Shown here: piece after piece, positions 7,462 to 28,513 of the stretch | Layout: the number at the start of each line of letters is the position of its first letter | How positions within the stretch are numbered: position 1 is the stretch's first letter | NCBI GenBank assembly: GCA_021325675.1 | Contig: JAJTCM010000003.1 | Location: 434,001-498,000, forward strand | Source: Crocinitomicaceae bacterium | Lineage (GTDB): Bacteria > Bacteroidota > Bacteroidia > Flavobacteriales_D > Crocinitomicaceae | DNA: 64,000 nucleotides | Reading direction: 5' to 3' | Translations under genes and position numbers: made by a program | Notes under the pieces: generated by a model | Database searches by the model: none | What the model was told of the DNA's origin: nothing | What the model saw: only the letters and a program-made list of their open reading frames with translations

Positions 7462-7519
7462 GGATTGGAGTTAGAAACTTTTTAAAAGAAAGGCTGATAA
7501 TTGTTCCAATTTAAAATTC

Positions 7520-7576
7520 TTACAACTTATTTCCCGAATCTTATAAGCCCGGATTTCCTTTAATTCCAGTACTTTG
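7520..7576 (+). promoter_or_regulatory. Island regulon promoter 1 (pseudo-receiver gene), weakest member
   Basis: Half-site TTACAACTTATT starts at 7520, half-site TTATAAGCCCGG at 7541 (21 bp apart), and the -7-like box GTACTTTG at 7569 (28 bp on). The first half-site misses the T(G/A)TAA core by one base and the -7 box is poor, but the spacing equals that of the other six sites. Confidence 0.4.
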
Positions 7577-7594
7577 CAGGTAAAGATCAGTATT

Positions 7595-8086: not shown

Positions 8087-8102
8087 CTGATGTGTGTGAA
8101 TT

Positions 8103-8159
8103 ATGTAACTTTTCAAAAAAAAAATATAATGGCCCGGCTTATAAAAACAGATATATTCG
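8103..8159 (+). promoter_or_regulatory. Island regulon promoter 2 (AraC regulator, autoregulation)
   Basis: Half-site ATGTAACTTTTC at 8103, half-site ATATAATGGCCC at 8124 (21 bp apart), -7-like box TATATTCG at 8152 (28 bp on; one base off TAnnTTTG). Same geometry as the BON and DUF5670 promoters. It lies directly before the AraC-type gene, as expected for autoregulation. Confidence 0.6.
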
Positions 8160-8181
8160 CAATTATCTAATACATTGAGCC

Positions 8182-8772
8182 TTGAAAATTTTCATTAAAA
8201 ACATGGTAAGCAACCGCTGCAAGCTAGTAGTAAAGGAAGAGCTCCGCAAGTTGGGATTGCATTTTATTGTTGTGGATTTAGGTGAAGTGGAGATTATGGA
8301 AGACCTCACCGCCGAGCAACGTGAACAATTAAGAGAAGCCCTCCAGGTCTCGGGCCTGGAACTTATGGATGATAAACGGGCTGTTCTCATCGAAAAAATT
8401 AAAACGGTAATCATCGAGATGGTCCATCATTCAGACGAAATGATAAAAGTGAACTTCTCTGATTACCTGAGTGAAAAACTAAAGCATGATTATACCTACA
8501 TGGCAAACCTTTTTTCGGAGATCCAGGGTATGACAATCGCCCAGTTTATTATCTCGCATAAAATCGAGCGGATTAAAGAGCTTATCATTTACGATGAGCT
8601 GAATATCACGGAGATTGCCTGGAAAATGAATTACAGCAGTGTAGCGCATTTATCCAACCAGTTTAAAAAAGTTACCGGCCTTTCGCCTTCACACTTCAAG
8701 CAATTGAAGGAAAGAAGGAGAAGCCCGCTGGAAGAAATAGGGATGGTCCCGCAAAACCAACAACAAATTTAA
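8182..8772 (+). CDS. AraC-family regulator with heavy-metal-associated-like N-terminal domain
   Basis: A 196-aa protein. The start is taken at TTG 8182 because MKIFIKNMV forms the first strand of an HMA/ferredoxin-like N-domain (about 1-62: MVSNRC, then HFIVVDLGEVEI); ATG 8203 would remove that strand. In relatives as I remember them this loop reads MVCxRC, resembling the CxxC metal site; here the first Cys is Ser10 and only Cys13 remains. Residues about 95-178 are the AraC HTH pair (YMANLFSEIQGMTIAQFI; ITEIAWKMNYSSVAHLSNQF). It is the only DNA-binding regulator in the 7.5-29 kb island, and its own promoter carries the shared 21-bp direct repeat. Inference: master activator of the island. Its signal could be redox, metal or phosphorelay-linked; the sequence does not decide. 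Confidence 0.88.
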   Translation: MKIFIKNMVSNRCKLVVKEELRKLGLHFIVVDLGEVEIMEDLTAEQREQLREALQVSGLELMDDKRAVLIEKIKTVIIEMVHHSDEMIKVNFSDYLSEKLKHDYTYMANLFSEIQGMTIAQFIISHKIERIKELIIYDELNITEIAWKMNYSSVAHLSNQFKKVTGLSPSHFKQLKERRRSPLEEIGMVPQNQQQI

Positions 8773-8845
8773 TAACAGAAACAAAATTCAGCCTGGGATA
8801 ACCCACCTTTTACCCAAGACCATCCTGAAAACTTGAAGTATAAAT

Positions 8846-9220
8846 ATGAACGATGCCACCACTTATATCGATCTTTCTAACCTGAAACGGCTAACCAAAT
8901 CAGACCCCAGTCTTATGATGGAGCTGATTACAGTTTACCTGGAACAAACACCAACTATGATCCAGGTGATCCGGCAAAGCCTTGCGGACAAGAACGGCGA
9001 GCTGCTTAAAGCAACTATCCACAAAATGATCCCATCCCTGAATATTATGGGTGTTGACCCGGGATATGAGCGTTTAGCGCGCAAAGTCCAGGAATATGAC
9101 TACTCGAAAGGATTTACGTCCGAAGTGGAGGATATGGCGCTTAAGCTGGAACAGATTTTTACGGGAATCTGTGTCGAACTTCAGCAGGTTTTCGAAGAAT
9201 TGCAAAAAGAACACAAATAA
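8846..9220 (+). CDS. Orphan histidine phosphotransfer (Hpt) protein
   Basis: A 124-aa all-helical protein with the Hpt core around H59 (ATIHKMIPSLNIMG), flanked by the usual helices (DPSLMMELITVYLEQTP). Hpt proteins carry phosphate between receiver domains. No histidine kinase gene is nearby, so the donor must be encoded elsewhere. The single-domain response regulator 81 bp downstream is the obvious partner. No regulon-type promoter or good TAnnTTTG box was found between the AraC gene and this one, so they are likely co-transcribed. The Hpt assignment is firm; direction of phosphoflow is unknown. Confidence 0.88.
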   Translation: MNDATTYIDLSNLKRLTKSDPSLMMELITVYLEQTPTMIQVIRQSLADKNGELLKATIHKMIPSLNIMGVDPGYERLARKVQEYDYSKGFTSEVEDMALKLEQIFTGICVELQQVFEELQKEHK

Positions 9221-9301: not shown

Positions 9302-9736
9302 ATGAGCAGCACTAGTAAAATTAAGCTTTTCCTTGTCGATGATGATCCGATTTTTTTGAAATCCCTAGAAATTGAATTTCTTCAACATGGAGATTTTGCG
9401 ATCGAAACATACCCGACGGGTGAGCTATGTGTACAAAACCTGGAGAACCAACCGGATGTAATTATCCTGGATTTCCACCTCAACGGGATTGAGCAAGATG
9501 CTATGAACGGACTGGAGACCCTTGACAAAATCAAGGCCTTTAACGAAGGAATCCCTGTCATCATGCTTTCATCACAAGACAAGATTGAGGTAGCCGTTGA
9601 ATGTATGCACCACAAAGCACTGGACTATGTCGTAAAAAGCGAAACCGCCTTTTTCCGATTGCAAAAAATGATTAACTCTGCCTTCGAAATGAAGAAAATG
9701 GCGAAGGAGCTGAATTGGTACGTAAGCCGCATGTAA
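9302..9736 (+). CDS. Single-domain (CheY-like) response regulator
   Basis: A 144-aa receiver with all active residues: acidic cluster D13-D15 (LVDDDP), phospho-acceptor D57 (VIILDFHL), S90/S91 and K112 (YVVKS). A short helix follows, with no DNA-binding or enzyme output domain. It probably acts with the Hpt encoded just upstream, either as phosphate source, sink or a protein-binding output. Together with the membrane-tethered pseudo-receiver and the AraC protein it forms a compact signalling module without a kinase. Preceded by 81 bp with no recognisable promoter, so probably part of the AraC-Hpt transcript. Confidence 0.9.
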   Translation: MSSTSKIKLFLVDDDPIFLKSLEIEFLQHGDFAIETYPTGELCVQNLENQPDVIILDFHLNGIEQDAMNGLETLDKIKAFNEGIPVIMLSSQDKIEVAVECMHHKALDYVVKSETAFFRLQKMINSAFEMKKMAKELNWYVSRM

Positions 9737-9758
9737 TAAGGCTTTCCAACTAAGAATG

Positions 9759-9815
9759 ATGTAATAAATCGATCAATAAATGTAATACCTGAAGCTTCCC
9801 TCCGTCTTAAATTTG
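9759..9815 (+). promoter_or_regulatory. Island regulon promoter 3 (BON gene)
   Basis: Half-sites ATGTAATAAATC (9759) and ATGTAATACCTG (9780) are 21 bp apart; the -7 box TAAATTTG, a full TAnnTTTG match, starts at 9808, 28 bp after the second half-site. A further ATGTAATA at 9731 overlaps the end of the previous gene. No TTTG occurs at -33. This promoter and the one at 14106 defined the pattern. Confidence 0.65.
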
Positions 9816-9849
9816 TTTCCAAGGATCTACCTGGAATAATTCAAGACCT

Positions 9850-10506
9850 ATGAGAAGAAACGATGATTTACAATACGATGTTTCTGAAGCGATACGCTGG
9901 GAACCTCTTTTGAAAGATGCCGATATTCACGTGAGTGCTCAGGATGGGGTTGTTACCTTAACCGGCACCGTCAACAGCTATATCAAAAAGCTCGAGGCTG
10001 AAGATGCTGCAAAACGCATCGCCGGGGTGAAAGCAGTTGTTGATAACATAGAAATCAAATTACATAACACCGAGAATGAGGATGAAGCCCTTACAGGACG
10101 CGTACAGCAGGCCTTGGGGCTCAATTCCTCTGTACCCCACGCCCATCTCACGGTCCATGTACAGGACGGCTGGGTAAACCTTCACGGCGACCTTCCTTCC
10201 CATTTCGAGAAAGAAGCTACACTGAAAACAGTGAAAGGCATTTCCGGCGTCCGGGGTGTTATCAACCATATTAAAATCATTTCTGATCAAACCGACCAGA
10301 TTGAAAAGGACGAAATCGAACGCGCCCTGAAACGCAACTGGGCTGTCAATGAGAAAGACATTGAAGTACAGGTGATCGGAAATGTAGTGAAGCTCCGCGG
10401 CACAGTCGGATCCATCTTCCAGCGTGAAGAAGCGGAAAAAATTGCCCGCAACGCCCCGGGAATCCTGGGGGTAAGCAATGAATTACTAATCGAATACCGA
10501 TTTTAA
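9850..10506 (+). CDS. Triple BON-domain protein (OsmY-like)
   Basis: A 218-aa protein made of three consecutive BON domains (about 1-70, 76-145, 149-218), each with the valine-glycine pattern (VVTLTGTVNSY; WVNLHGDLPSHFE; VVKLRGTVGS) and a final V-x-N strand. BON domains bind phospholipid membranes and occur in OsmY-type osmotic and envelope stress proteins. There is no signal peptide, so it is predicted cytoplasmic, unlike enterobacterial OsmY. It has its own regulon-type promoter and is followed by GH130 and glycosyltransferase genes. Role in envelope stress is inferred from family and neighbours. Confidence 0.9.
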   Translation: MRRNDDLQYDVSEAIRWEPLLKDADIHVSAQDGVVTLTGTVNSYIKKLEAEDAAKRIAGVKAVVDNIEIKLHNTENEDEALTGRVQQALGLNSSVPHAHLTVHVQDGWVNLHGDLPSHFEKEATLKTVKGISGVRGVINHIKIISDQTDQIEKDEIERALKRNWAVNEKDIEVQVIGNVVKLRGTVGSIFQREEAEKIARNAPGILGVSNELLIEYRF

Positions 10507-10602: not shown

Positions 10603-11655
10603 ATGGTGAATGTGACCAAACATGGTATCCTGCTTGAAAAAACAAAGCTGGGCTTTGAGAATGAAGGCGTTTTGAACCCGGCCGCAATCCGGGACGGGGA
10701 ATACGTGCACCTGTATTACCGGGCGGTAAGCAAAGGCAATTACTCAACAGTTGGGTACTGCAAGCTGAAGGGCCCGTTGACTGTGGAAGAGCGAATGGAC
10801 AGCCCGATCATTTTTCCGCAGGCCAAAAACGAGATCCACGGGGTGGAAGATCCCCGCATTTGTAAAATAGACGACCAGTATTACCTCACTTATACAGCTT
10901 ACGACGGTGAGAATGCACTGGGCGCCCTGGCCCTCTCGGAAGACGCGAAAAATTTCCGGAAATGGGGGATTATCACAGCGCAGATCAGCTATATGGAATT
11001 CATCCACCTGGCGAAACTGCGCAAGAAGATCAACCCGAAATATGAACGGATGAACGAGCAGGTGAGGATCCATGAGCACATGCATGACAAATTGTTTCTT
11101 TGGGACAAAAACGTGATGTTTTTCCCGAGACGCATTGACGGAAAATTGTGCATGCTCCACCGTATCAAGCCCGATATCCAGGTAGTACGCTTCGACAAGC
11201 TCGAAGACCTGACCGACCAGTTCTGGCAAAACTACTTCATTCACCTGAGAGAAAATATTGTTATTGACTGCAGATACGATCATGAGTCCAGTTACGTTGG
11301 CGGAGGTGCTCCGCCGATTGAAACAGAACAAGGATGGCTGATCATCTACCATAGTGTGAGGGATACAGTAAAAGGTTACGTGTATTCGGCTTGTGCCGCC
11401 CTGCTCGACCTCGAAACCCTACACGAAATTGCCCGCCTGCCCTACCCCCTGTTCCAGCCTGATCTTGATTGGGAATTAAAGGGATACGTGAACAATGTTT
11501 GTTTCCCGTCGGGCACTGTAATTTTTGATAACACCCTGTATATCTATTACGGGGCAGCTGATAAACGTGTTGCATGCGCTTCTGTGGACCTGACAGAATT
11601 ATTAAATGAATTAATGCTAAATGTAAAACATCATGACAAGGAACAGTTTATTTAA
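10603..11655 (+). CDS. GH130-family glycosidase/phosphorylase
   Basis: A 350-residue five-bladed beta-propeller enzyme of family GH130 (inverting phosphorylases or hydrolases, chiefly on beta-mannosides). Family marks: GVLNPAAIRDGEYVHLYYR near the start, HGVEDPRI, and ESSYVGGGAPPIETEQGWL leading into a YHS motif. An in-frame TTG at 10570 exists; ATG 10603 (MVNVTKHGILLE) gives the expected N-terminus. No signal peptide, so it acts in the cytoplasm. The glycosyltransferase fusion starts at or just after its stop codon, so the two should act on the same glycan. The exact sugar linkage cannot be told. Confidence 0.88.
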   Translation: MVNVTKHGILLEKTKLGFENEGVLNPAAIRDGEYVHLYYRAVSKGNYSTVGYCKLKGPLTVEERMDSPIIFPQAKNEIHGVEDPRICKIDDQYYLTYTAYDGENALGALALSEDAKNFRKWGIITAQISYMEFIHLAKLRKKINPKYERMNEQVRIHEHMHDKLFLWDKNVMFFPRRIDGKLCMLHRIKPDIQVVRFDKLEDLTDQFWQNYFIHLRENIVIDCRYDHESSYVGGGAPPIETEQGWLIIYHSVRDTVKGYVYSACAALLDLETLHEIARLPYPLFQPDLDWELKGYVNNVCFPSGTVIFDNTLYIYYGAADKRVACASVDLTELLNELMLNVKHHDKEQFI

Positions 11656-14011
11656 ATTGAGAGAAAAAGTCTTAAAAATGAAACCGCAAACGACTGTTGG
11701 TGAACAAAACCTCGCGCCCCTGAGACGGGAAAAAACTGGCATTCTGCTGATCAGCTCTTTTCCGCCGAGAGAATGCGGAATTGCAACCTATTCACAGGAT
11801 CTCGTCGGTGCAATCCGAAATAAATTCCGCGGGTCTTTCCGTATCGGGATTTGTGCCCTCGAAGCTGCCGGCGTTAAACATACATATCCCAATGAAGTTG
11901 ACCTGACCTGGGATACCAGCCGCGACGCATCTTATACCGAAATGGCTGAGCAAATCAACAATGACCCGGAAATCCACGTGATCCTCGTTCAGCATGAATT
12001 CGGCCTGTTTGAAGGTAAAAAGGAACAATTGAACCACTTTTTCGATCTGCTCAACAAACCGGCCGTGATTGTATTTCACACCGTTTTGAAAAATCCGGAT
12101 GAAAATTTGAAAGCACATGTGTGCAGACTGGAAAGCAGAGCGAAAGAAATCATTGTTATGACGGATAATTCCGCATCAATCCTACACACGGATTATGGAA
12201 TTTCACAATCAAAAATTTCCGTTATACCGCATGGAACGCACTTGATCGAGAATGAAGAAAAATCCGTTCTTAAAGATAAATATGGTGTTGGCGGACGTAA
12301 AATATTATCCACTTTCGGCTTGCTAAGCTCCGGCAAAAGCATCGAAACAACCCTGGATGCGCTCCCTTCAATTATAGAGCAACATCCTGATGTGCTTTTC
12401 TTGATCCTGGGGAAAACCCATCCGACCATCGTTCAGCGCGAAGGCGAAGCTTACCGTGATATGCTGAAAGCTAAAATCAACGAGCTTGGAATTAATAATC
12501 ACGTGCACTTTGTAAACGAGTTCCTGCCGCTTGCCGACTTATTGGAATACCTGCAGCTGACCGATATTTACCTGTTCACTTCGAAAGATCCGAACCAGGC
12601 TGTCAGCGGGACTTTTTCCTATGCTATCAGCTGCGGCTGTCCGGTAATCTCCACGCCGATCCCGCATGTACGTGAAGTGCTGCAAAATAACGTAGGCTAC
12701 ATCATTGATTTCGGCAATCCTGTGCAGCTGGCGGAAAAAGTCAACCATTTGCTTGGTAACGAAGAACTAATGAAAGCCATGAGCAACAACTGCCTGCACC
12801 ATATGGCTTCTACAGCCTGGGAAAACTCTGCTATTGCACATGCACGCATCTTTCACAAGCACAGCCCGCAAAAAGAGCCTTTGCGTTACTATTTGCCGGA
12901 AATCAAGCTCAATCACGTCAAAAAAATGACAACAGATTTCGGCATCATCCAGTTTTCAAAAATCAACCATCCTGACCTCGACTCCGGCTATACGCTGGAT
13001 GACAATGCCCGGGCGATGGTAGCGCTGTGCCAGTATTATGAGCTGAAGCGTGACGCAAACGATTTGGAATATATCCGCATTTACCTGGACTTCATTCGTT
13101 ATTGCCAGCAGCAGGAGGGCTATTTTTTAAATTACGTAGACGAGGACAAAGCTTTTACAGCACAAAATAACGAAACAAACCTCGCAGATTCCAACGGACG
13201 TGCGATCTGGGCTTTGGGCTACCTGATTTCCCTGGGAAATATCCTGCCGGAAGACCTGGTATCAGATGCAGAGGAAATCCTGCAAAAGGCCCTCGTAAAT
13301 ATCAAAAAAATCCATTCAACCCGTGCAATGGCTTTTGCTGTCAAAGGTTTGTATTACAGGAACACTTACCAGCAATCTGCTTACGATCTCGACCTGATCC
13401 GGGCATTGGCCGATCGCATGGTTCAAATGTATAAACATGAGAAAGACCAGGATTGGCTTTGGTTTGAGAGCTACCTGACCTATGCCAACAGTATTTTGCC
13501 CGAAGCTTTGCTTTGCGCCTGGATGGCTACAGGTGATCCGGTTTACAAGGAAATCGCCAAAACAACATTTGACTTTTTAATCTCCAAAATATTCAGCGGA
13601 AATACGATCCGTGTCGTTTCCAACAAAGGCTGGATGCACAAAAAACAGGAGGTGGAAAAATTCGAAAGGCCGCTTGGCGGTGAACAGCCGATTGACGTTG
13701 CTTACTCAATCCTTGCCCTGAACAAATTCTATGCAATTTTCCATGATACTGATTATCGCGCTAAAATGGAAAATGCACTCAATTGGTTTCTCGGAAACAA
13801 CCATCTCAACCAGGTGATTTACAATCCATGCACCGGCGGATGTTATGACGGCCTGGAAGAAAATTATGTCAACCTGAACCAGGGCGCCGAATCTACTGTG
13901 AGCTACCTGATGGCCCGCTTATGCCTCGAAAAGCTAAACCGCGTCCAAACGAACATGGAGATCTCAACGGATTTCCACAGCAAAGCTGATTTCAAACTGA
14001 TTTCCGCATAA
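11633..14011 (+). CDS. GT4 glycosyltransferase fused to an (alpha/alpha)-barrel glycosidase-like domain
   Basis: A 792-aa protein. Residues about 35-415 are a GT-B, GT4-type glycosyltransferase (ISSFPPRECGIATYSQDLV; VIPHGTHL; FTSKDPNQAVSGTFSYAIS; GCPVIS). Residues about 420-775 are helical and aromatic-rich (LDSGYTLDDNARAMVALCQY; WLWFESYLTYANSILPEALL; CTGGCYDGL), matching six-hairpin glycosidase-like folds. ATG 11633 overlaps the GH130 gene by 23 nt; ATG 11678 is an alternative after an A-rich stretch. The pairing with GH130 suggests combined synthesis and turnover of a mannose-type oligosaccharide. A strong terminator follows. Function of the C-terminal domain is inferred from fold appearance only. 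Confidence 0.85.
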   Translation: MTRNSLFKLREKVLKMKPQTTVGEQNLAPLRREKTGILLISSFPPRECGIATYSQDLVGAIRNKFRGSFRIGICALEAAGVKHTYPNEVDLTWDTSRDASYTEMAEQINNDPEIHVILVQHEFGLFEGKKEQLNHFFDLLNKPAVIVFHTVLKNPDENLKAHVCRLESRAKEIIVMTDNSASILHTDYGISQSKISVIPHGTHLIENEEKSVLKDKYGVGGRKILSTFGLLSSGKSIETTLDALPSIIEQHPDVLFLILGKTHPTIVQREGEAYRDMLKAKINELGINNHVHFVNEFLPLADLLEYLQLTDIYLFTSKDPNQAVSGTFSYAISCGCPVISTPIPHVREVLQNNVGYIIDFGNPVQLAEKVNHLLGNEELMKAMSNNCLHHMASTAWENSAIAHARIFHKHSPQKEPLRYYLPEIKLNHVKKMTTDFGIIQFSKINHPDLDSGYTLDDNARAMVALCQYYELKRDANDLEYIRIYLDFIRYCQQQEGYFLNYVDEDKAFTAQNNETNLADSNGRAIWALGYLISLGNILPEDLVSDAEEILQKALVNIKKIHSTRAMAFAVKGLYYRNTYQQSAYDLDLIRALADRMVQMYKHEKDQDWLWFESYLTYANSILPEALLCAWMATGDPVYKEIAKTTFDFLISKIFSGNTIRVVSNKGWMHKKQEVEKFERPLGGEQPIDVAYSILALNKFYAIFHDTDYRAKMENALNWFLGNNHLNQVIYNPCTGGCYDGLEENYVNLNQGAESTVSYLMARLCLEKLNRVQTNMEISTDFHSKADFKLISA

Positions 14012-14071: not shown

Positions 14072-14105
14072 AAATCTTCCGAAACACTTGTCAGACCTAA
14101 GAAAT

Positions 14106-14162
14106 CTGTAAACAAAACTGCTAATCCTGTAAGCAAAAACAAGGCATTCTACCCCATCTTTG
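14106..14162 (+). promoter_or_regulatory. Island regulon promoter 4 (DUF5670/YtxH/holin run)
   Basis: Half-sites CTGTAAACAAAA (14106) and CTGTAAGCAAAA (14127) differ at one of 12 bases and are 21 bp apart. The -7-like box CATCTTTG starts at 14155, 28 bp after the second. The -7 box is one base off consensus and there is no -33 TTTG, as expected for an activator-dependent promoter. Confidence 0.65.
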
Positions 14163-14257
14163 TAAAAAAGAAAAACCTTTACAAGACAAAAACCGACAGA
14201 AAAAACAACAACTAAATTACCCTGGGAAAAAAACTTACAACGGACAACACCTGCACT

Positions 14258-14415: not shown

Positions 14416-14448
14416 ATAATTTGTAACTCAAATAAAAACCAAAATAAG

Positions 14449-14727
14449 ATGGAAAATTCAACAGGCAAAATGGTTGGCGCACTTTTAGTAGGCGCTGCAA
14501 TCGGAGGAATAATCGGTATGCTTTTCGCACCTGACAAAGGAAGTGAAACTCGTAAAAGACTGCTTGCAAAAGGCGGTGATCTGACCGATACGCTTAAAAA
14601 CAAGTTCAACGGATTTATGGAAGATTCTGAAGATGCGTATGATAATGTAAAGCAAAAAGTGAAGGATACAGTTGACAATGTTCAAAAATCAGCTGAGAAC
14701 GTTTCAAAAGCTTATAATAAAGCTTAA
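14449..14727 (+). CDS. YtxH-domain stress protein
   Basis: A 92-aa protein: a glycine-rich transmembrane segment (GALLVGAAIGGIIGMLFAPD) followed by GSETRKRLLAKGG and an amphipathic, charged helix rich in Lys, Asp and Val (DNVKQKVKDTVDNVQK). This is the standard YtxH (Gvp-like) layout, found in general-stress loci of Firmicutes and Bacteroidota. It sits between a DUF5670-like gene and a holin-like gene in the same direction, a common stress-locus trio in Bacteroidota. The molecular role is unknown; membrane association is certain from the sequence. Confidence 0.9.
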   Translation: MENSTGKMVGALLVGAAIGGIIGMLFAPDKGSETRKRLLAKGGDLTDTLKNKFNGFMEDSEDAYDNVKQKVKDTVDNVQKSAENVSKAYNKA

Positions 14728-15722: not shown

Positions 15723-15752
15723 TATAAAGCTAACAATCTGAACCTGTGAATG

Positions 15753-15809
15753 TTATAATTTTATAAAAAAACGATGTAACATATTACGCGACCATACTTT
15801 TCAACTTTG
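15753..15809 (+). promoter_or_regulatory. Island regulon promoter 5 (giant adhesin operon)
   Basis: Half-sites TTATAATTTTAT (15753) and ATGTAACATATT (15774) are 21 bp apart; the -7-like box CAACTTTG starts at 15802, 28 bp after the second. The box was picked before the half-sites were checked. One base off TAnnTTTG, no -33 TTTG. Confidence 0.6.
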
Positions 15810-15843
15810 TAGTGTAAAATTTCATTCACTTAAACTACGTAAC

Positions 15844-18800
15844 ATGAAAGTAAAACAACTTTACCAATTCATCGTACTTTTACTGTTAATGGTTTCGACA
15901 GGCGTTATTGCCCAACCGAATTTAGGTACCACAGCTGAGTTTTCATTCTTCACCTCATCAGGTGACGTGAGCAACTCAGGATCTTCCCAGGTTATCGGGA
16001 ATATTGGTACCGATTTCGGCAGCATTACCGGTTTCGGGAACATTAACGGTACTACGCACGATACCGACGGGGCCAGCGCCCAGGGGGCACTGGACTTAAC
16101 AGTTCTGTACAACGACCTGAACTCATCCGTCGCGACATTTTTTCCTGCTGCTGCCCTGGGCAACGGCCAGGTACTTACCCCGGGTGTTTATTCAATCGCC
16201 ACCGGGGCAACTTTAACTGCAGACCTAACGCTTGACGCGCAGGGTGACCCGAATGCAGTTTTCATTATCCGGACCAACGGAGGATTGACCACCGCGGCGA
16301 ACTCCGAGGTTATCCTTGTTAACGGAGCCATTGCCTGTAATGTATTCTGGCAAATCGAAGGCGACGTTGCACTGGGGTCCAACTCGGTGATGAAGGGGAC
16401 TATTCTTGCCAACAACTCCGACATTGACGCGGATGCTTCCGTATCACTGGAAGGAAGATTGCTGACAAATGCAGGGACCATTACTATGGATGACATCCTG
16501 ACTTACACGCCTGCAGGCTGTGGCGCGCCACTGCTTAACGGGCCTGCTGCACCAAACCTGCTCTCGGCAGCGTGTTATGCGCTCCTCGCAGTGGATGCCA
16601 ACATGAGTAATACCGGTGTGAGTATCATTACCGGTGAAGTAGGCAGCGACAACGGCACTTCAATTGGTTTCGACCCGCTCTTTATCAGCGGTACTCTACA
16701 CCTCGCTTCGGATGCCTCGACTTCGCAGGCTGCTGCAGATTTTATGAATGCTTATACTTATGCCAGCTCTGTTAGCCCGGACCTTACTATTACATTCCCG
16801 GCTCAATTTGGAAATGGCCTCATTTTAACACCACATACCTATATACTCAATGCAAACACCACGTTAAGCGACACGCTTTTCCTGGATGCACAGAATAACT
16901 CAAGCGCTGTTTTCCTGATCCAGGTTAACGGAGATTTGACCACCATGATGAATTCACAGATCGTTTTATTAAACGGTGCTGACGCAGACAACATCTACTG
17001 GGAAGTTGACGGTAACGTCACGCTCGGTGATAACTCTATGTTCATCGGAACGATCATGGCAAACAACGGAGATGTTACAATTGGTTCAGGAGCAGAGGTC
17101 GAAGGGCACGTCCTTGCAACCAATGGTGAAATCAATATCACTTCTGCAACGATCACCATTCCAACTTTATGCTCACCTGAAATTGCGATCCAGCCGATCG
17201 ATCAAACCGTATGCGAAGGCGCTACGGTAAATTTCAGCGTTACGGCTACCGGTGCCGGACTGACTTACCAGTGGAGACGGGGAACTGTTGACCTGGTAGA
17301 CGGCGGAAATATTTCCGGTGCTACAACCTCTACTTTAACAATTACCGGCGTAACTACTGCCGATGATGCTACGGACTACAATGTTGTGGTTACAGGTGAT
17401 TATGAGCCTGCTGCAACTTCAGATAATACGGCTTTGGTCGTAAATACTGCACCTAATATTACTATTCAGCCAATTAACGCGGCTGTTTGTGCCGGTGACG
17501 CTGCTACTTTTACAGTAACAGCTACAGGTACTGCTTTGACTTACCAATGGATGAAAGGTGGTATGCCGCTGACAGATGCGGGAAGTATTTCCGGTACAAC
17601 AACGGCAACCCTGACAATTGACCCGGTAGATGTCCTTGATGCAGCTTCAGATTACAGCGTATTAGTTGCGGGTACTTGCCCTGCAAGTATGGCTTCTGTA
17701 GATGTTGCACTGACAATCAACGCACCGGTTGCAATCACTACACAGCCAACAGACGAAACTGTTTGTGAAGGCGGTTCAGTTACTTTTTCAGTAATTGCCA
17801 CCGGAGCAGGCTTAACCTATCAATGGACCAGAGGAGGTGTAAACTTAGTGGACGGCGGATCAGTTTCCGGCGCTACTTCAGCTAGCCTTACTATCGATCC
17901 TGCTGTACAGGCAGACGAAGCAACTGACTACAACGTAATTGTTTCAGGCACTTGCCCGGGCAGTATGACTTCAGTTGATGTTGAACTGACTGTGGACGAA
18001 GTCCCTGTTATTACAGTAGAACCTGTAGATCAAATGGCTTGCGACGGTGATGCTGTAAGCTTCAACGTTACTGCAACAGGAACAGGCTTAACTTATCAAT
18101 GGAGACAAGGCACCAACAACATGGTTGACGGTGGACGCATTTCCGGAGCTATGACAAGCACATTAACTATCGACCCTACACTGGCAGCTGACGCCGCACC
18201 TGACTACAACGTTATTGTTACGGGATCTTGCGGAACAAGTGTCACTTCAGTAAATGCCGAACTTATCATCAACACATCTCCGGTAATTACCGTTCAGCCA
18301 GTTGATGAAAGTGTTTGTGAATCAAATATTGTAAATATCGCCGTTACTGCAACAGGAAGCGGCTTGACTTACCAATGGAGAAGAGGTGCAGTTAACCTCA
18401 CTGACGGCGGAACTATAACCGGTTCTACTTCTTCTGTTCTGACAATCAGCCCGGTTGTGGCAGGTGATGCAGGAACAGACTACAACGTGGTTGTTTCCGG
18501 TGCCTGCGGTTCTAGCGTAACTTCGATAGACATGGAATTAACTGTCAACGCTGTTCCTCAGATCACGATGGAGCCTGTTGATATGGCTGTTTGTGAAGGT
18601 ACTTCTGTTTCATTCACAGTTGCCGCTACCGGAGAAGGTATTACTTATCAATGGTACAAAGGCGGGCTTGGCCTGGCTGACGCAGGAAGCGTAAGCGGGG
18701 TGACAACTCCTACATTAACAATTAACCCGGTAAACAGTATTGACACCGGAACAGACTATTATGTTGTCGTATCAGGAATTTGTCCTGTGGAAGATACTTC

Positions 18801-21800
18801 CGTAAACGTTTCCCTGTCAATCAATACACCTCCGGTAATTACACTCCAGCCAGTTAACGAAAGCGTTTGCCCGGGCGGATCTGTAAGCTTTACAGTTGGT
18901 ACAACAGGCAATGGCCTTACTTACCAGTGGACGCGCGGCGGTGTAAACCTCCTTGACGGCGGAAACATTTCCGGCGCTACAACGTCTACTTTAACAATTG
19001 ACCCTGCAGCCGGCGCTGATGTCGCTACAGATTACAACGTGATTGTATCCGGATCTTGTCCTGCTCCTGTAACATCAGTAGATGTTTCCCTGAGCCTTGA
19101 CGCTGTTCCGGTTATTACCGTTCAACCGGCAGATGATGCTGTTTGTGACGGCGGACCTGCAAGCTTTACGGTTACTGCAACAGGAACCGGATTGACTTAT
19201 CAATGGATGCGCGGTGGCGTTGCCCTGACGGACGGCGGAAATATTTCCGGTGCTACAAGTGCAACTTTAACCATCAACCCGGCAACAGCTGCTGACGAAG
19301 CAACTGATTACAGTGTTATGGTTTCCGGGGCTTGCCCTGCACCTGTTACATCCGTAGATGTAGAATTAACGGTTAACGATCTGACAAGCATTACCATTCA
19401 GCCTACAGACCAGCAGGTATGTGAAGGAAATGCCGTAAGTTTCACAGTTACTGCTGTTGGAAACGGTCTTTCATACCAATGGACACGCGGCGGTGTAAAC
19501 CTTGTTGACGGAGGAAATATCTCCGGTGCAACAAGCGCTACTTTAACAATCGATCCGGCAATGAGTGCAGATGCCTTCCCTGATTACAATGTGATTGTAT
19601 CCGGTGTATGTCCTGCAACAACTTCAGCCGATGTCGAATTAACTATCAATACGGCCCCGGTAATTACTGTCCAGCCAACAGACGAGACTTTCTGTGAAGG
19701 AAGTTCAGCTGTCCTGAGCGTAACTGCAACCGGAACAGGCTTAACTTATCAGTGGATGCGCGGTGGTGTGGCACTGGTGGACGGCGGAGCAATTTCCGGC
19801 GCTACATCAGCTTCTTTAAACATCAACCCGGTAACAACTGCAGATGCGGGAACAGACTACAGCGTGATGATCACGGGAACCTGTCCTTCAGCTGTAACTT
19901 CCGTTGATGCTGAATTAATTATCAATACTGCCCCTGTTATTACTGTACAACCGGTGGATGTGACTGTGTGCGAAGGCTCATCAGCAACTCTTTCCGTAAC
20001 AGCAACAGGATCAGGTTTAACATACCAATGGATGAAAGGCGGGGTTGGCCTGACTGATAACGGAACAATTTCCGGGTCTACAACTTCTTCCCTGACTATC
20101 GATCCAACAACGACGGCAGACGGTGCACCAGACTATACAGTAGTGGTAACCGGAGCTTGTCCTTTCCCTGTAACTTCCCTGGATGCGATGCTGGTAATCA
20201 ACACCGCTCCTACAATTACCGTTCAGCCAACTGACCGCACAGTATGTGAAGGCAGCCCGGCTACGTTTACCGTAACGGCTACAGGAGGAAACCTGAACTA
20301 CCAATGGAGAAGAGGTGCAATTAACCTCGTTGACGGAGTAAATATCTCCGGTGCAACAACTTCTACACTGACAATTGACCCGGCGATGATGGCGGATGCT
20401 GACAATGACTACAACGTTGTGATTACGGGTTCTTGTCCGGGCACAGCAACATCTGTCAACGTTTCTTTAAACATCGAAACAACTCCTGTTATTCTTGTTC
20501 AGCCAATTGACCGCACAGTATGTGAGGGAACTTCTGTAAGCTTTAGCGTTACAACTTCTGCTTCAGGTTTAACTTACCAGTGGAGACAGGGAACAAACAA
20601 CATGGTTGACGGGGCACGCGTTTCCGGTTCAACAACTTCTACCCTGACTATCAACCCGGTAAACAGCGGAGATGCAGCACCTGACTACAACGTAGTGATT
20701 TCAGGTACATGTCCTTCAAGCACGACTTCCGTGAGCGTTTCCTTAACAGTGAACACTGCTCCGGTAATTACCATGCAGCCAACAGATCAGAATGCATGTC
20801 CTGGTGAAGCAGTAAGCTTTACTGTAGGGGCAACAGGAACCGGTCTGACTTACCAATGGATGCTTGGTGGTGCTATCCTCGTTGACGGCGGAAACATGTC
20901 CGGCACGAACACGGCTACCCTGACTATTGACCCTGTGAATGCAGGCAATGGAGCAGTTGATTACCACGTAGTAGTTTCAGGTACCTGCCCTGCACCGGTT
21001 AACTCCGATGATGCAGCGCTGAATATCAATAACTCACCGGTAATTACTGTACAGCCAATCGACATGAGTGTTTGTGACGGCGGATCAGTAAGCTTTAACG
21101 TAACTTCTCCGGGAGCTGGTTTAACTTACCAGTGGAGAAGAGGAACAACTGACCTCGTTGACGGAGGCAACATTTCCGGTGCAACTACGGCAACGTTAAC
21201 AATCAACCCGGCCAGCGCTGCTGATGTTGCGGGAGATTATAACGTGGTCATTACCGGTGCATGTCCTACAAGCACAACTTCTGTGGATGTTTCTTTAACG
21301 CTCAATGCCGATCCTGTAGTTACCGTGCAGCCTGTAGACCAGACTGTATGTGAAGGTAGCGCAGTAAGCTTTACCGTTGGAGCAACAGGATCAGGATTAA
21401 CATATCAATGGAGACAAGGTACCAACAACATGGTTGACGGTGCACGGGTTTCCGGAGTTACAACAAGTACATTAACTATTGACCCTACAATGGCAGCTGA
21501 CGATGCACCTGACTACAACGTTGTTGTTACAGGAGTATGCGGAACAAGCGTTACATCTGTCAATGCCGATCTGACTATCAATACAGCACCGGTAATTACA
21601 GCTCAGCCTGTTGACGTTACAGCTTGTGAGGGAAGCTCTGTTTCCTTCAGTGTAGGTGCAACCGGTTCCGGACTGACTTACCAGTGGATGTTAGGCGGGG
21701 TGATGTTGGTTAACGGAGGTAATATCTCCGGCGCAACATCTTCAACGCTGACTATCGACCCTGTAACGCTCCTTAACGCGGCTGCAGATTACAGTGTTGT

Positions 21801-24576
21801 AATCACGGGCACTTGTCCTTCATCAGTAACTTCAGCTGATGCTGAATTAATTATCAATACTGCTCCTGTAATTGCGCTTCAGCCGACAGACGAAACCGTT
21901 TGTGAAGGTTCAGCTGCAACTTTCAGTGTAACAGCAGTAGGAGTAGGATTAACTTACCAGTGGATGGTTGGTGGTACAAACCTTGTTGACGGCGGAAACA
22001 TTTCCGGCGCTACAACTTCCACCCTGACTATCGATCCTGCTATGACAACAGATGCAGCTACAGACTACAGCGTAGTTGTTATGATGGGAAGCTGTCCTGC
22101 AACTTCAGTTGACGCAGAATTAACGGTAAACGTTGGTCCTTCAATCACGGCACAGCCGGTTGACGCAACTGTATGCCCGGGCGGAACAGCAACTTTCAGT
22201 GTAACGGCAACGAACCCTGTATTGGTTTACCAATGGATGCGCGGTGGTGCGATGCTCGTTAACGGCGGAAACATTTCCGGTGCAACATCTTCTACCCTCA
22301 CAATTGATCCGGTAGGACCAGGTGATGCAGGAACTGACTACAGCGTAGTTGTTTCAGGCGGAGCTTGCTCTACACAGTCTGTAGATGTAGCGCTCATCAT
22401 CAATGATGCCCCTGCAATTACTGTACAACCAACTGACCAGACCGTATGTGAAGGCTCTGCCGCTACACTTTCTGTAACAGCAACCGGTACAGGTCTTACT
22501 TACCAGTGGATGCGCGGCGGTGTGAATATCGTTAACGGCGGAAACATTTCAGGAGCTAATACAGCAACCCTGACAATTGACCCGGCTACAACGGCTGATG
22601 ATGATTCTGATTATAGTGTAATGGTTTCAGGAGCTTGTCCTTCCGCGGTAACGTCCGTAGATGTTGACCTGACAGTGACACCTGCTACTGTAATCACTGT
22701 TCAGCCTGTGAACCAGACTGTCTGCGAAGGCAACCCGGTAAGCTTCAGTGTTACCGCAACAGGTACAGCACCGCTTACTTACCAATGGATGCGCGGAGGT
22801 GTTAACCTCGCTAACGGTGGAAACATTTCAGGAGCTAACACAGCTACTTTAACCATCGATCCGGCAATGACAGCCGATGCAGGAACAGATTATACAGTAA
22901 TGATTTCAGGAGCATGCCCAAGTGTAACTTCGGCTAACGTTTCCCTGACGATCAACACTGCCCCTGTAATTACTGTCCTCCCTGCCGATCAAAGTGTTTG
23001 TGAAGGAAGCTCTGTAACTTTCACTGTAGTTGCTACGGGTACTGGTCTCAGCTACCAATGGAGAAGAGGTATTGTGAACATGACGGATAACGCCACAGTT
23101 TCAGGTACAACGACTTCAAGCATGACAATCGCACCGGTAGCCCTGACAGATCAGGGAACTAACTATAACGTGGTTATCACGGGAACATGTCCTTCCGCGG
23201 TAACTTCAGCAGATATTGCCTTAACTATCCAGCCGTCCCCAATCATTACCGTACAGCCTTTAGCTCAAACGGTGTGTGAAGGCGGAGCAGCGACATTCAC
23301 TGTCACAGCTATCGGAGCAGGCTTAACATATCAATGGAGACAAGGCAGCAACAACATGGTTGACGGCGCACGGATTTCCGGAGCTACTACAACTACATTG
23401 ACAATCGATCCTGTATTGGCAGCTGATGCCGCCCTGGATTACAATGTTGTAGTAACCGGTACTTGCCCTGCTACTTCAGTTGACGTTGCCCTCAACGTAA
23501 ATACTGCACCAGTAATTACAGTACAACCGGTTAACCAGACAGTTTGTCCTGGAGATGCTGCAACTTTTGCAGTAACTGCAACCGGTTCTAACTTAACATA
23601 CCAGTGGAGAACGGGTACAACCAACCTGGTGAACGGAGGAAATATCTCCGGTGCTACGACTTCAACCCTGGTGATTGATCCTGTAGATGCTTCCGATGCG
23701 GCGGCAAACTACAATGTGGTTGTTACCGGATCTTGTCCGACAGCAGCTACTTCTGCCAATGCATCCTTAATCCTGAATACCCCTGCTGCAATTACTGTAC
23801 AGGCGGTTAACCAGTCAGTGTGTGAAGGCAGCGCGGTAACCTTTAATGTTACTGCTACAGGTACAGGATTAACTTACCAGTGGAGAAGAGGCACAACCAA
23901 CCTGGTTAACGGAGGAACAATTTCCGGGGCCACAACTGCCAGCTTAACGATCAATCCGGTTGACAATACCGATGCAGGCAACAACTACAACGTAGTCGTT
24001 TCCGGAACCTGTCCGGGAAGTGTTACATCTGTCAACTATACGTTGGATGTAAACGGTGTTCCTGTTGCAGTTGCTTCGGCTAACACTGACCTTTGTGTCG
24101 GTACGGCTATCGCCCTGAATGCTGAAAGCGTTTCAGGTGCAACTTACAGCTGGTCAGGACCGAACGGTTATACATCTGACGCGCAGAACCCGGTAATCGG
24201 CTCAGCAGCTACAAGCAATTCAGGTACGTACACACTCGTTGTTACACGCAACGGATGTACTGCAACGGATGACGTAGCCGTACTTGTTCTTGATGACTGT
24301 GACATTGTAGCGATTTCAATTCCCGAAGGTTTCTCACCTAACGGCGATAACATCAACGACATCCTGGTGATTAATGGAATTGAAAACTATACTGATAACA
24401 AATTCATGATCTTCAACCGTTGGGGTGATGAGGTATTCGAAGGTGACTCTTACGCAAATACCTGGGATGGAAAAGGACCGAATGGCGAAATACTGCCTGT
24501 AGGTGTTTACTTCTACATTCTTGAGCTCGGTGACGGTTCTGAAGATAAGAAGGGAACCATTTACTTAAACAGATAA
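15844..24576 (+). CDS. Giant 2910-aa T9SS type B surface protein: two ice-binding-like domains plus 25 Ig-like repeats
   Basis: Signal peptide (MKVKQLYQFIVLLLLMVSTG, cut after VIAQ). Two DUF3494 ice-binding-like domains follow (about 27-226 and 240-442), each with the LDAQ...AVFLI and NVxWxxxGxVxLGxNSxMxGTI patterns. Residues 446 to about 2740 are 25 Ig-like repeats of about 92 residues, each with QP.D.TVCEG, LTYQW, GGNISGA, LTIDP and SGTCP. A different Ig-like unit comes next, then a gliding-motility type B sorting domain (about 2826-2910; FSPNGDNINDILVINGI, ending KGTIYLNR). Export should use T9SS with the PorP/SprF protein encoded next. A cell-surface adhesin is the natural reading; ice or surface binding is possible but DUF3494 domains also serve as general adhesion modules. 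It carries the island's regulon promoter. Confidence 0.92.
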   Translation: MKVKQLYQFIVLLLLMVSTGVIAQPNLGTTAEFSFFTSSGDVSNSGSSQVIGNIGTDFGSITGFGNINGTTHDTDGASAQGALDLTVLYNDLNSSVATFFPAAALGNGQVLTPGVYSIATGATLTADLTLDAQGDPNAVFIIRTNGGLTTAANSEVILVNGAIACNVFWQIEGDVALGSNSVMKGTILANNSDIDADASVSLEGRLLTNAGTITMDDILTYTPAGCGAPLLNGPAAPNLLSAACYALLAVDANMSNTGVSIITGEVGSDNGTSIGFDPLFISGTLHLASDASTSQAAADFMNAYTYASSVSPDLTITFPAQFGNGLILTPHTYILNANTTLSDTLFLDAQNNSSAVFLIQVNGDLTTMMNSQIVLLNGADADNIYWEVDGNVTLGDNSMFIGTIMANNGDVTIGSGAEVEGHVLATNGEINITSATITIPTLCSPEIAIQPIDQTVCEGATVNFSVTATGAGLTYQWRRGTVDLVDGGNISGATTSTLTITGVTTADDATDYNVVVTGDYEPAATSDNTALVVNTAPNITIQPINAAVCAGDAATFTVTATGTALTYQWMKGGMPLTDAGSISGTTTATLTIDPVDVLDAASDYSVLVAGTCPASMASVDVALTINAPVAITTQPTDETVCEGGSVTFSVIATGAGLTYQWTRGGVNLVDGGSVSGATSASLTIDPAVQADEATDYNVIVSGTCPGSMTSVDVELTVDEVPVITVEPVDQMACDGDAVSFNVTATGTGLTYQWRQGTNNMVDGGRISGAMTSTLTIDPTLAADAAPDYNVIVTGSCGTSVTSVNAELIINTSPVITVQPVDESVCESNIVNIAVTATGSGLTYQWRRGAVNLTDGGTITGSTSSVLTISPVVAGDAGTDYNVVVSGACGSSVTSIDMELTVNAVPQITMEPVDMAVCEGTSVSFTVAATGEGITYQWYKGGLGLADAGSVSGVTTPTLTINPVNSIDTGTDYYVVVSGICPVEDTSVNVSLSINTPPVITLQPVNESVCPGGSVSFTVGTTGNGLTYQWTRGGVNLLDGGNISGATTSTLTIDPAAGADVATDYNVIVSGSCPAPVTSVDVSLSLDAVPVITVQPADDAVCDGGPASFTVTATGTGLTYQWMRGGVALTDGGNISGATSATLTINPATAADEATDYSVMVSGACPAPVTSVDVELTVNDLTSITIQPTDQQVCEGNAVSFTVTAVGNGLSYQWTRGGVNLVDGGNISGATSATLTIDPAMSADAFPDYNVIVSGVCPATTSADVELTINTAPVITVQPTDETFCEGSSAVLSVTATGTGLTYQWMRGGVALVDGGAISGATSASLNINPVTTADAGTDYSVMITGTCPSAVTSVDAELIINTAPVITVQPVDVTVCEGSSATLSVTATGSGLTYQWMKGGVGLTDNGTISGSTTSSLTIDPTTTADGAPDYTVVVTGACPFPVTSLDAMLVINTAPTITVQPTDRTVCEGSPATFTVTATGGNLNYQWRRGAINLVDGVNISGATTSTLTIDPAMMADADNDYNVVITGSCPGTATSVNVSLNIETTPVILVQPIDRTVCEGTSVSFSVTTSASGLTYQWRQGTNNMVDGARVSGSTTSTLTINPVNSGDAAPDYNVVISGTCPSSTTSVSVSLTVNTAPVITMQPTDQNACPGEAVSFTVGATGTGLTYQWMLGGAILVDGGNMSGTNTATLTIDPVNAGNGAVDYHVVVSGTCPAPVNSDDAALNINNSPVITVQPIDMSVCDGGSVSFNVTSPGAGLTYQWRRGTTDLVDGGNISGATTATLTINPASAADVAGDYNVVITGACPTSTTSVDVSLTLNADPVVTVQPVDQTVCEGSAVSFTVGATGSGLTYQWRQGTNNMVDGARVSGVTTSTLTIDPTMAADDAPDYNVVVTGVCGTSVTSVNADLTINTAPVITAQPVDVTACEGSSVSFSVGATGSGLTYQWMLGGVMLVNGGNISGATSSTLTIDPVTLLNAAADYSVVITGTCPSSVTSADAELIINTAPVIALQPTDETVCEGSAATFSVTAVGVGLTYQWMVGGTNLVDGGNISGATTSTLTIDPAMTTDAATDYSVVVMMGSCPATSVDAELTVNVGPSITAQPVDATVCPGGTATFSVTATNPVLVYQWMRGGAMLVNGGNISGATSSTLTIDPVGPGDAGTDYSVVVSGGACSTQSVDVALIINDAPAITVQPTDQTVCEGSAATLSVTATGTGLTYQWMRGGVNIVNGGNISGANTATLTIDPATTADDDSDYSVMVSGACPSAVTSVDVDLTVTPATVITVQPVNQTVCEGNPVSFSVTATGTAPLTYQWMRGGVNLANGGNISGANTATLTIDPAMTADAGTDYTVMISGACPSVTSANVSLTINTAPVITVLPADQSVCEGSSVTFTVVATGTGLSYQWRRGIVNMTDNATVSGTTTSSMTIAPVALTDQGTNYNVVITGTCPSAVTSADIALTIQPSPIITVQPLAQTVCEGGAATFTVTAIGAGLTYQWRQGSNNMVDGARISGATTTTLTIDPVLAADAALDYNVVVTGTCPATSVDVALNVNTAPVITVQPVNQTVCPGDAATFAVTATGSNLTYQWRTGTTNLVNGGNISGATTSTLVIDPVDASDAAANYNVVVTGSCPTAATSANASLILNTPAAITVQAVNQSVCEGSAVTFNVTATGTGLTYQWRRGTTNLVNGGTISGATTASLTINPVDNTDAGNNYNVVVSGTCPGSVTSVNYTLDVNGVPVAVASANTDLCVGTAIALNAESVSGATYSWSGPNGYTSDAQNPVIGSAATSNSGTYTLVVTRNGCTATDDVAVLVLDDCDIVAISIPEGFSPNGDNINDILVINGIENYTDNKFMIFNRWGDEVFEGDSYANTWDGKGPNGEILPVGVYFYILELGDGSEDKKGTIYLNR
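17179..24055 (+). repeat. 25 tandem Ig-like coding repeats, about 275 bp each
   Basis: Counted by their openings (AIQPIDQTVCEG to VQAVNQSVCEG), there are 25 units. Codon choice differs between units (for example CAGCC, CAACC and CAGCG in the same position), so the array is old and kept by selection on protein sequence rather than recently amplified. Some neighbours share longer identical blocks, leaving room for recombination. Confidence 0.9.
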
Positions 24577-27582: not shown

Positions 27583-27652
27583 AGTTATAAAAATTTCAAC
27601 TTTCATCACACTCCCCGCGGCGGAATTCATCATTCTCAATTAAGTAGGATTT

Positions 27653-27709
27653 ATATAATTTTTGTTGGGGTGAATGTAAAACACAAGACACCCGACTTGC
27701 TTACCTTTA
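27653..27709 (+). promoter_or_regulatory. Island regulon promoter 6 (DUF5670-tailed lipoprotein)
   Basis: Half-sites ATATAATTTTTG (27653) and ATGTAAAACACA (27674) are 21 bp apart; the -7-like box TACCTTTA starts at 27702, 28 bp after the second. Both half-sites were predicted by the geometry of promoters 3 and 4 and then found. Confidence 0.6.
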
Positions 27710-27762
27710 TTCTCAGATAACGGCATCTTGCTGTTGCTTTGTTTCACCTAATTTACATGATT

Positions 27763-28374
27763 ATGAAAAATTTATTTACAATTATCACCTTTACAATTTT
27801 AGGAAGTGTTTTATTTTCCTGTGGAAGCAGTCTCACCGTTACAAAGCGTAGGGTGAACAAAGGCTTTTATATTGCCAGCAATAACAACAAAGGCATTAGC
27901 AAGCATGTGAAAGAAAATGAGGCCGACAAGCCTTACCACAAGCCGATCAGCGAAATTGCAATCGCTCCGGAAGAAATGCCGCAAGAAACAGTTATTGCCA
28001 GAAATGAAACGCCTGTGGCTCAGGCTGAACAGGAACTACAGGCAGACGGAACTGTAACTGAAAGCACTCCTCAGCCGGCTTCTGTGAAGCACAAAATCAT
28101 TCAAAAGAAAATGGCTGCAGCAGAAAGTACCAAACGCATCATCGAAAAAGTGTCTTACCAGCCTAAAAAGCATTTGCAAAAAATGAAGCAGAGCGCCAGC
28201 CCTCAGCCTATTGTAGGCGCAGTGCTGAGCTTGTTCTGGATCGTGATCCTGATCATCTTCCTGCTCTACCTCGTAGGCTTGCTCGCCGGCGGTTTCGGTT
28301 TGGGCGGATTGATCCACCTCTTGCTGGTGATCACGCTTATCCTCTTGATCCTCTGGCTCCTGGGAATTGTCTGA
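27763..28374 (+). CDS. Lipoprotein with C-terminal DUF5670/lmo0937-like membrane hairpin
   Basis: A 203-aa protein from ATG 27763 (ATG 27757 is two codons earlier). The N-terminus is a lipoprotein signal with lipobox SVLFSCGSS. A polar, proline- and alanine-rich middle section follows. The last 55 residues form two hydrophobic helices (LSLFWIVILIIFLLYLVGLL; LGGLIHLLLVITLILLILW) whose GLIHLLLVI motif resembles the small lmo0937/DUF5670 proteins, one of which is encoded (frameshifted) at 14258. I do not know this fused form as a named family. It has the island's regulon promoter and its own terminator. Probably spans or links the outer and inner membranes, but topology is unproven. Confidence 0.82.
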   Translation: MKNLFTIITFTILGSVLFSCGSSLTVTKRRVNKGFYIASNNNKGISKHVKENEADKPYHKPISEIAIAPEEMPQETVIARNETPVAQAEQELQADGTVTESTPQPASVKHKIIQKKMAAAESTKRIIEKVSYQPKKHLQKMKQSASPQPIVGAVLSLFWIVILIIFLLYLVGLLAGGFGLGGLIHLLLVITLILLILWLLGIV

Positions 28375-28386
28375 CACCTGTAAAAC

Positions 28387-28443
28387 ATATAACATTGCGG
28401 GCAATTCGTGTAACAAGCGATTGCCCGTTTTGCTACATATTTG
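28387..28443 (+). promoter_or_regulatory. Island regulon promoter 7 (coiled-coil lipoprotein)
   Basis: Half-sites ATATAACATTGC (28387) and GTGTAACAAGCG (28408) are 21 bp apart; the -7-like box CATATTTG starts at 28436, 28 bp after the second. The site overlaps the terminator hairpin of the preceding gene, which is unusual. Confidence 0.5.
28398..28430 (+). terminator. Terminator after the DUF5670-tailed lipoprotein gene
   Basis: CGGGCAATTCG (28398) pairs with CGATTGCCCG (28418) with one bulged T; a short TTT follows. Confidence 0.65.
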
Positions 28444-28513
28444 CATTTAGACCGAGCTGAGCTTTTTGAAAGACTAACTGCAAAAACGTGTCAACAATCA
28501 AAATTTATTTGCC

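Follow-up and report, generated by a model that had tools for sequence, protein, structure and literature searches.

As the gene of an AraC-type regulator in a Crocinitomicaceae genome is preceded by a pair of direct half-sites, we were interested which genes this protein controls and by which promoter signal. A sequence-only reading of the DNA had proposed an autoregulated master of the surrounding island. The window, meaning the whole 64-kb stretch of DNA that was analysed, was compared with homologous loci from other genomes. With a probability of roughly 0.8, we read the protein as an AraC-type activator acting through paired half-sites on its own gene and on a regulon of stress and cell-surface genes, its activity probably being set by a kinase relay.

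The regulator and its own promoter

The AraC-type regulator and its promoter region were present at 8103-8772 as proposed. The open reading frame begins at TTG 8182 or ATG 8203 and stops at 8772 (189-196 aa); TTG 8182 is the likelier start, as homologs share TTG, ATG or GTG at this position in many cases, followed by conserved coding sequence, and with this start the N-terminus reads MKIFIKNMVSNRC. Pfam detected a C-terminal HTH pair (HTH_18, E 1.8e-15; HTH_AraC, E 1.9e-8), as in AraC/XylS proteins. A search of solved-structure sequences (18 matches up to E 1) led mostly to AraC-type HTHs aligned with this C-terminal part, besides weak matches to other proteins including two Fur. That no other DNA-binding regulator is encoded between 7.5 and 29 kb held for the 15 ORFs scanned with Pfam, the 2910-aa ORF being covered by its first 309 aa; the neighbouring receiver + TM protein gave no DNA-binding domain in Pfam.

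Modelling with AF2 from 46 aligned window and locus proteins resulted in a confident model (pLDDT 91.2, pTM 0.83), in which a helix connects a beta-alpha-beta-beta-alpha-beta domain (1-63) to two HTHs. The HTH pair aligned with MarA (116 residues, Z 14.4) and AraC (Z 12.1), and this two-HTH domain is shared with the AraC/XylS proteins (AraC at araI1-I2, MarA/SoxS/Rob; best rows Z 9-14.6). The N-domain (E2-6 H11-23 E28-32 E35-38 H44-56 E60-62) has the ferredoxin-like order of the HMA fold. It aligned with HAH1 (Z 7.7), GolB (Z 7.6), Atx1 and CopZ (range Z 7.1-7.7), but ACT-type rows aligned about equally (Z 7.4-8.3) and values below 8 may reflect a common arrangement, so that the fold alone cannot name the family. 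HMA domains carry an MxCxxC motif; as this is missing in the window protein, which has MVSNRC instead, the domain is called HMA-like only. The Pfam HMA profile did not match the window protein at E 0.1. Its relatives speak for the HMA reading: the MVCxRC of the paralogs described below matches MxCxxC, and the Pfam profile weakly matches 4 of the 46 (best E 0.0019). Thus, of the HMA/ferredoxin-like N-domain proposed before, the fold was supported by AF2 and structure alignment, and the assignment to HMA by sequence stayed weak. In AraC this place is taken by a cupin sugar-binding domain; the regulator further differs from AraC by a Bacteroidota-type -7 box and by an apparently stress-related regulon of many promoters.

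In the regulator's own promoter, the first half-site at 8102-8109 (TATGTAAC) is canonical and the second at 8123-8130 (AATATAAT) degenerate, and the 21-bp direct repeat described before is real. The box (TATATTCGC) differs from the usual CTTTG. With the 42-column matrices the site scored 33.6 and 31.6 bits.

Table 1. Predicted promoter elements and genes around the regulator (window coordinates; element scores from the 68-column model).
Feature	Position	Strand	Remarks
Element before receiver-domain + TM gene	7510..7577	+	4.4 bits, weakest of seven, inside best-shuffle range
Receiver domain with C-terminal hydrophobic segment	7595..8086	+	PF00072 E 1.6e-7
Regulator's own promoter	8093..8160	+	32.9 bits; box ends 8160, 22 bp before TTG 8182
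Regulator	8182..8772	+	HMA-like N-domain (residues 1-63), helix, AraC-type HTH pair (about 92-173)
Hpt-like protein	8846..9220	+	42% identical to C-terminal Hpt region of L037 hybrid kinase
Stand-alone receiver protein	9302..9736	+	60-71% identical in six other genomes; 69% vs L037
Element before BON gene	9749..9816	+	12.9 bits
Three-BON-domain protein	9850..10506	+	PF04972 E 6.3e-45
GH130-family enzyme	10603..11655	+	no own element above 3 bits
Glycosyltransferase after GH130	11633..14011	+	pair recurs in L050
Element before small-membrane-protein-like frame and YtxH gene	14096..14163	+	6.9 bits
YtxH-family protein	14449..14727	+	PF12732 E 2.7e-17
Element before ice-binding-like gene	15743..15810	+	35.2 bits, best in window
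2910-aa protein with N-terminal ice-binding-like (DUF3494) domain	15844..24576	+	PF11999 E 2.4e-44
Element before gene 27757	27643..27710	+	12.1 bits
Small membrane lipoprotein	27757..28374	+	gene alike by eye behind a site in L037
Element before gene 28514	28377..28444	+	12.9 bits
Lipoprotein-like coiled-coil protein	28514..28939	+	homologs in 6/80 loci

A shared promoter element and its link to the regulator

Homologs were collected by tblastn (124 matches, 122 kept), giving 119 distinct upstream regions, 118 without that of the window. Upstream of homologs across Bacteroidota a consensus element was found, consisting of two direct half-sites (TTATGTAAC) 21 bp apart with a -7-like box at a near-fixed distance behind them: 61 of the 118 regions held TGTGTGAATTATGTAACTTATTTnnAAAGTTATGTAAC above 8 bits, a score reached by none of 118 shuffled upstreams. 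Scanning of the other loci led to 242 distinct sites. The box A[ACT][CT]TTT[GA], which played no part in finding them, begins at one of two offsets behind the 42-bp element (17 or 18) in 196 of the 242, compared to a median of 0 at other offsets. The araI site of AraC has this geometry as well, with direct half-sites spaced by 21 bp beside the -35 region; here, direct half-sites beside a promoter were seen in these 242 sites and in seven sites of the window. The matrices were trained on 80 loci and the family loci, those of 42 columns without the window and the 68-column promoter model without the window's genome, so that window, genome and fixed-pattern scans were held out. Since the 80 loci were chosen as the best of 242, close homologs are over-represented among them, and their 231 sites above 10 bits are an in-sample count.

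The box after the element (A..TTTG) resembles the Bacteroidota sigma-A promoter TAnnTTTG of F. psychrophilum (PMC9723704), a paper whose main text contains neither AraC nor TGTAAC. The second half-site sits approximately at -33, and the stretch from there to the box shows little conservation except for the bases beside the box. A half-site overlapping about -33 with a little conserved spacer is the arrangement of class II AraC-type activators. This layout argues against the regulator being a repressor whose effect is relieved by the phosphorelay, a reading which we consider unlikely and which draws on the fact that sequence cannot show the direction of control. For an activator, the predicted events at the promoter would be binding of the TTATGTAAC pair by two head-to-tail monomers and recruitment of RNA polymerase to the housekeeping-type -7 box at its fixed distance.

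As a separate observation, the inverted repeat GTGA-n8-TCAC was detected in 28 of 241 regulon promoters at a fixed place just 3' of the -7 box, with a GTAA-n8-TTAC variant in 6 of 241. It lies near the predicted transcript start (an imperfect copy is found at 15812-15829, at the best promoter of the window) and may either form a hairpin in the 5' part of the mRNA or serve as a second operator.

When the 68-column model was run on the window, seven sites above 3 bits were detected, all on the forward strand between 7.5 and 28.4 kb and located before genes (Table 1); 100 first-order shuffles of 64 kb gave a mean of 0.02 sites and at most 1, with a best score of 5.5. A chance repeat was ruled out by this comparison with a held-out model. 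Five of these promoters (7510, 9749, 15743, 27643 and 28377) were absent from the sequence-only reading. The second fragment named there, 14106-14162, does hold a real element, if a weak one at 6.9 bits vs 5.5 for the best shuffle. The box ends 18-70 bp before the start codon at the window promoters except at 14096, where it ends 286 bp before YtxH and a small-membrane-protein-like frame lies in between. This frame (14260-14418) resembles by eye small membrane proteins behind sites elsewhere (L098), has no in-frame ATG near its start and looks frame-disrupted in a T run. The GH130 homolog of L050 (66%) does carry an element. No tblastn homologs of the 27757 protein were found in the 80 loci, and an Rfam scan of 7000-29000 gave 0 matches.

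Among the 80 homologs with at least 72% identity, 56 have the element within 260 bp upstream of their own gene (in-sample, the model having been trained on them) and 24 do not, which is consistent with the autoregulation suggested before. An own-promoter element was also present in 1 of 17 more distant homologs of the SxxC type and in 0 of 20 CxxC paralogs (see below for both types). Persistence of the motif in genomes without the regulator had been named as the observation that would speak against this link. In 51 genomes of the window's family, scanned with 2 mismatches, the mean number of matches was 7.1 with a regulator of at least 60% identity (n=7), 1.6 with a 41-59% homolog (n=17) and 1.0 without (n=27), the control pattern giving 0.3, 0.35 and 0.5, respectively. 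The difference between close-regulator and no-regulator genomes has a Mann-Whitney p of 2.4e-5, with kinship of the genomes ignored, and genomes with a 41-59% homolog are not clearly above those without (p 0.11). On these counts a motif that is generally independent of the regulator was rejected, with exceptions beyond the family. These emerged when 36 further phylum genomes were scanned at 1 mismatch, 17 with a homolog at E 1e-60 and 19 without. In the first group matches were obtained for G200 (10), G126 (10), G184 (6), G076 (4), G088 (3), G092 (2), G130 (1) and G157, where a 79% copy is accompanied by a single match equal to its control (1); the other 9 of the 17 had none. G119 and G201, whose SxxC copies have 64% and 59% identity, showed zero strict matches. 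Five of the 19 genomes without such a homolog had matches (G080 5, G084 2, and G138, G146 and G161 1 each). Of these, G080, G084 and G161 hold weaker members of the family, one of which lies 0.4 kb away from a site in G080; G146 has no family member at E 1e-12. Co-occurrence of element and regulator is therefore strong for close copies and blurred beyond.

Such matches in genomes without a close copy would also fit an element belonging to another factor, for example of the CRP/FNR type (cf. TGTGA), with the HMA-AraC protein as merely one of its targets. TGTGTGA precedes the first half-site and GTGA-n8-TCAC follows the -7 box in 28 of 241 promoters, which leaves room for a second factor at some of them. 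But the element is a direct and not an inverted repeat, and its 21-bp spacing is expected of AraC-type proteins; its abundance follows the close regulator, and a similar element is found in the loci of the CxxC paralogs themselves. We regard a foreign owner of the element as very unlikely, and keep to the regulator as its putative binding partner.

Relatives of the regulator and the kinase-receiver operon

Within the family to which the window belongs, a homolog at E 1e-20 is present in 27 of 60 genomes, own genome included (24 of 50 good-quality genomes); in the phylum, one at E 1e-60 is present in 18 of 148 genomes, again including the own one. The three congeners examined, one of them 86% complete, have none. 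Among GTDB species genomes, the 80 best loci out of 242 have 77-86% identity and belong to Flavobacteriaceae, Paludibacteraceae, Chitinophagaceae, Sphingobacteriaceae, Saprospiraceae and others, including two MAGs labelled Ignavibacteria; Flavobacterium urumqiense and F. glaciei (L071, L111) are cultivable examples of such carriers. Such identity over such distance, together with the absence in congeners, suggests that the regulator moved by horizontal transfer. Plasmid records with a family member at E 1e-30 amount to 27 of 72,556, 26 of them below 60% identity.

The 118 homologs fall into 98 of the SxxC type, the window protein included, and 20 of the CxxC type. In a tree of 64 of them (44 SxxC, 20 CxxC) one branch splits the two labels (91/89, bootstrap not settled). 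One Cys is invariant across 46 aligned relatives. The CxxC paralogs share the architecture of the window regulator at 41-66% identity, and most of their loci hold a similar element with the same spacing, often AATCTTACAA ... TTATGTAA: 14 of 20 loci score higher than any of 20 shuffles, where about 1 is expected, and 6 do not; L101, one of the 14, also holds an SxxC copy. They differ in reading MVCxRC instead of MVSxRC and in lacking both the hybrid kinase downstream and the own-promoter element, 20 of 20 in each case. Furthermore, an HMA, P-ATPase or CPMHP motif (regular expressions, not profiles) was found within 1.5 kb of 10 of the 20 CxxC genes vs 0 of 94 SxxC genes. We found no published name for these paralogs.

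Two family members per locus were observed in L036, L046, L048, L058, L074, L096, L099, L101 and L103; these are a close SxxC and a 63-69% SxxC copy, or SxxC and CxxC in L101, which suggests duplication and divergence.

From its relatives, the regulator could itself be a sensor of copper or a similar metal, with the regulon as a metal response. The HMA-like N-domain with its invariant Cys, the adjacent HMA and P-type ATPase motifs of half the CxxC relatives and a low-affinity iron permease gene behind the DUF2383 gene (see below) would agree with this, but Ser replaces the first Cys in 98 of 118 homologs including the window protein, none of the 94 SxxC genes has a metal motif nearby, and the predicted targets include CsbD, USP, DUF4142, ice-binding-like and OmpA proteins. 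We hold a metal response to be improbable and favour the stress and cell-surface regulon.

Where at least 3.5 kb of downstream DNA was available, close homologs are followed by a hybrid kinase in 56 of 59 and by a stand-alone receiver in 55 of 59 cases, both in a shared operon in 55 of 59. Over all types, the hybrid kinase was found behind 69 of 87 SxxC and 0 of 20 CxxC genes, the CxxC downstream DNA covering about 1.5 kb, so that a receiver gene farther out could be missed. In L037 the kinase reads PAS-HisKA-HATPase-REC-Hpt and precedes a stand-alone receiver. In the window the kinase is missing between regulator and receiver (8772-9302), leaving only the Hpt-like protein. Among 59 genomes chosen from those already searched, the stand-alone receiver (E 1e-35) was detected in 7 of 7 with a regulator of at least 72% identity and in 0 of 52 others. 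A hybrid kinase with a single-domain receiver is reminiscent of MrrA from Caulobacter (PMC5964349).

The predicted regulon and its control

Behind the sites of the other loci an ORF was found in 237 of the 241 analysed, forming 65 clusters, many of them small or singletons. The regulator itself is the target in 62 cases, and the largest other cluster is the ice-binding-like DUF3494 family (41 sites in 28 loci), followed by CsbD (11), OmpA lipoproteins (9), coiled-coil lipoproteins resembling 28514 (8), receiver + TM genes resembling 7595 (8 sites in 7 loci) and MlaE-like permeases (5, by look); USP is also present.

With up to 3 mismatches allowed, the fixed pattern matched the window's own genome 28 times (6 in the window) and the control pattern 5 times; with up to 2 mismatches the counts were 14 and 0, respectively. 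Twenty of the 28 were looked at; one (L118) lies inside a same-strand ORF and another (L134) under a 101-aa opposite ORF. The 22 matches outside the window were scored with the promoter model, taking the best score per 3-kb locus: 9 reached 15-35 bits and 3 reached 8-11 bits (L120, L130, L140), L129 had 4.8, L123 and L124 were not separable from L119, and the remaining 7 at 2.1 bits or less are probably chance. These predicted sites lie on several contigs. Genes behind the good ones code for MlaE (then ABC and MlaD), a T9SS-sorted protein, DUF4142, MscS, a lipoprotein, DUF2383 (one by Pfam, one by look) and a Fpg/Nei-like glycosylase, joined at middle scores by an SDR (9.3 bits) and, by look, another ice-binding-like protein, the second of this genome (8.3 bits); before the topoisomerase IB gene (L129) there is the weak site only. 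Behind DUF4142, a long catalase and a Rieske/FAD oxidoreductase follow in the same gene run after a 0.3-kb gap. The proposed island master thus turned out too narrow: the seven window promoters fit a model blind to this genome, but sites extend far beyond the island.

Several of the predicted targets are typical general-stress genes, and several others are cell-surface, not stress, genes, the label 'general stress' being inferred from the gene content of the targets and not from expression. CsbD, YtxH, USP and MscS are kinds of target known from the sigma-S, sigma-B and alphaproteobacterial PhyR-EcfG systems, with which the predicted regulon overlaps; unlike their alternative sigma factor or partner switch, the regulator would be a DNA-binding activator at a housekeeping-type promoter. 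A common promoter signal appears to place its own gene and many genes for stress survival under its control, and the protein is a candidate general stress regulator. Activation of its own gene would result in positive feedback, and in the window it would activate the receiver + TM, BON, YtxH and ice-binding-like proteins and two lipoproteins, elsewhere for example DUF4142, DUF2383, SDR, MscS and MlaE genes. A relay from the PAS hybrid kinase via receiver and Hpt to the stand-alone receiver probably sets the activity of the regulator; that this relay reaches the regulator through the HMA-like domain or the receiver protein is a guess, and the inducing stresses are likewise what we infer.

A wider reading, which we put forward tentatively and at somewhat less than even odds, is a Bacteroidota general stress response in which a phosphorelay-driven AraC-type activator, derived from a metal-sensing HMA-AraC regulator by loss of one metal-ligand cysteine, replaces the -33 element at dozens of promoters, in the role of an alternative stress sigma factor, and passes from lineage to lineage together with operon and sites. 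If true, a single ligand change could have turned a metal sensor into a stress regulator. To our knowledge, Bacteroidota have neither sigma-S nor sigma-B. The question of their stress control thereby becomes testable, with a specific regulator and its target list as well as an exact promoter code and a candidate phosphorelay to start from. The AraC-type family as such is already known. Neither an HMA-AraC regulator nor the element was found described in the literature searched, which contains few of the subscription papers; within that scope, the promoter code, the operon and the widespread regulon appear to be undescribed.

Among the congeners, a clear MlaE ortholog was present only in G049 (52%), where it has no site; this is one case, in a genome 86% complete. 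In the window's genome a second cluster with four sites was observed at G000:C8:18900-21430 (L193 4900-7427), three of them between the DUF763 and Fpg/Nei-like genes and one before the MscS gene.
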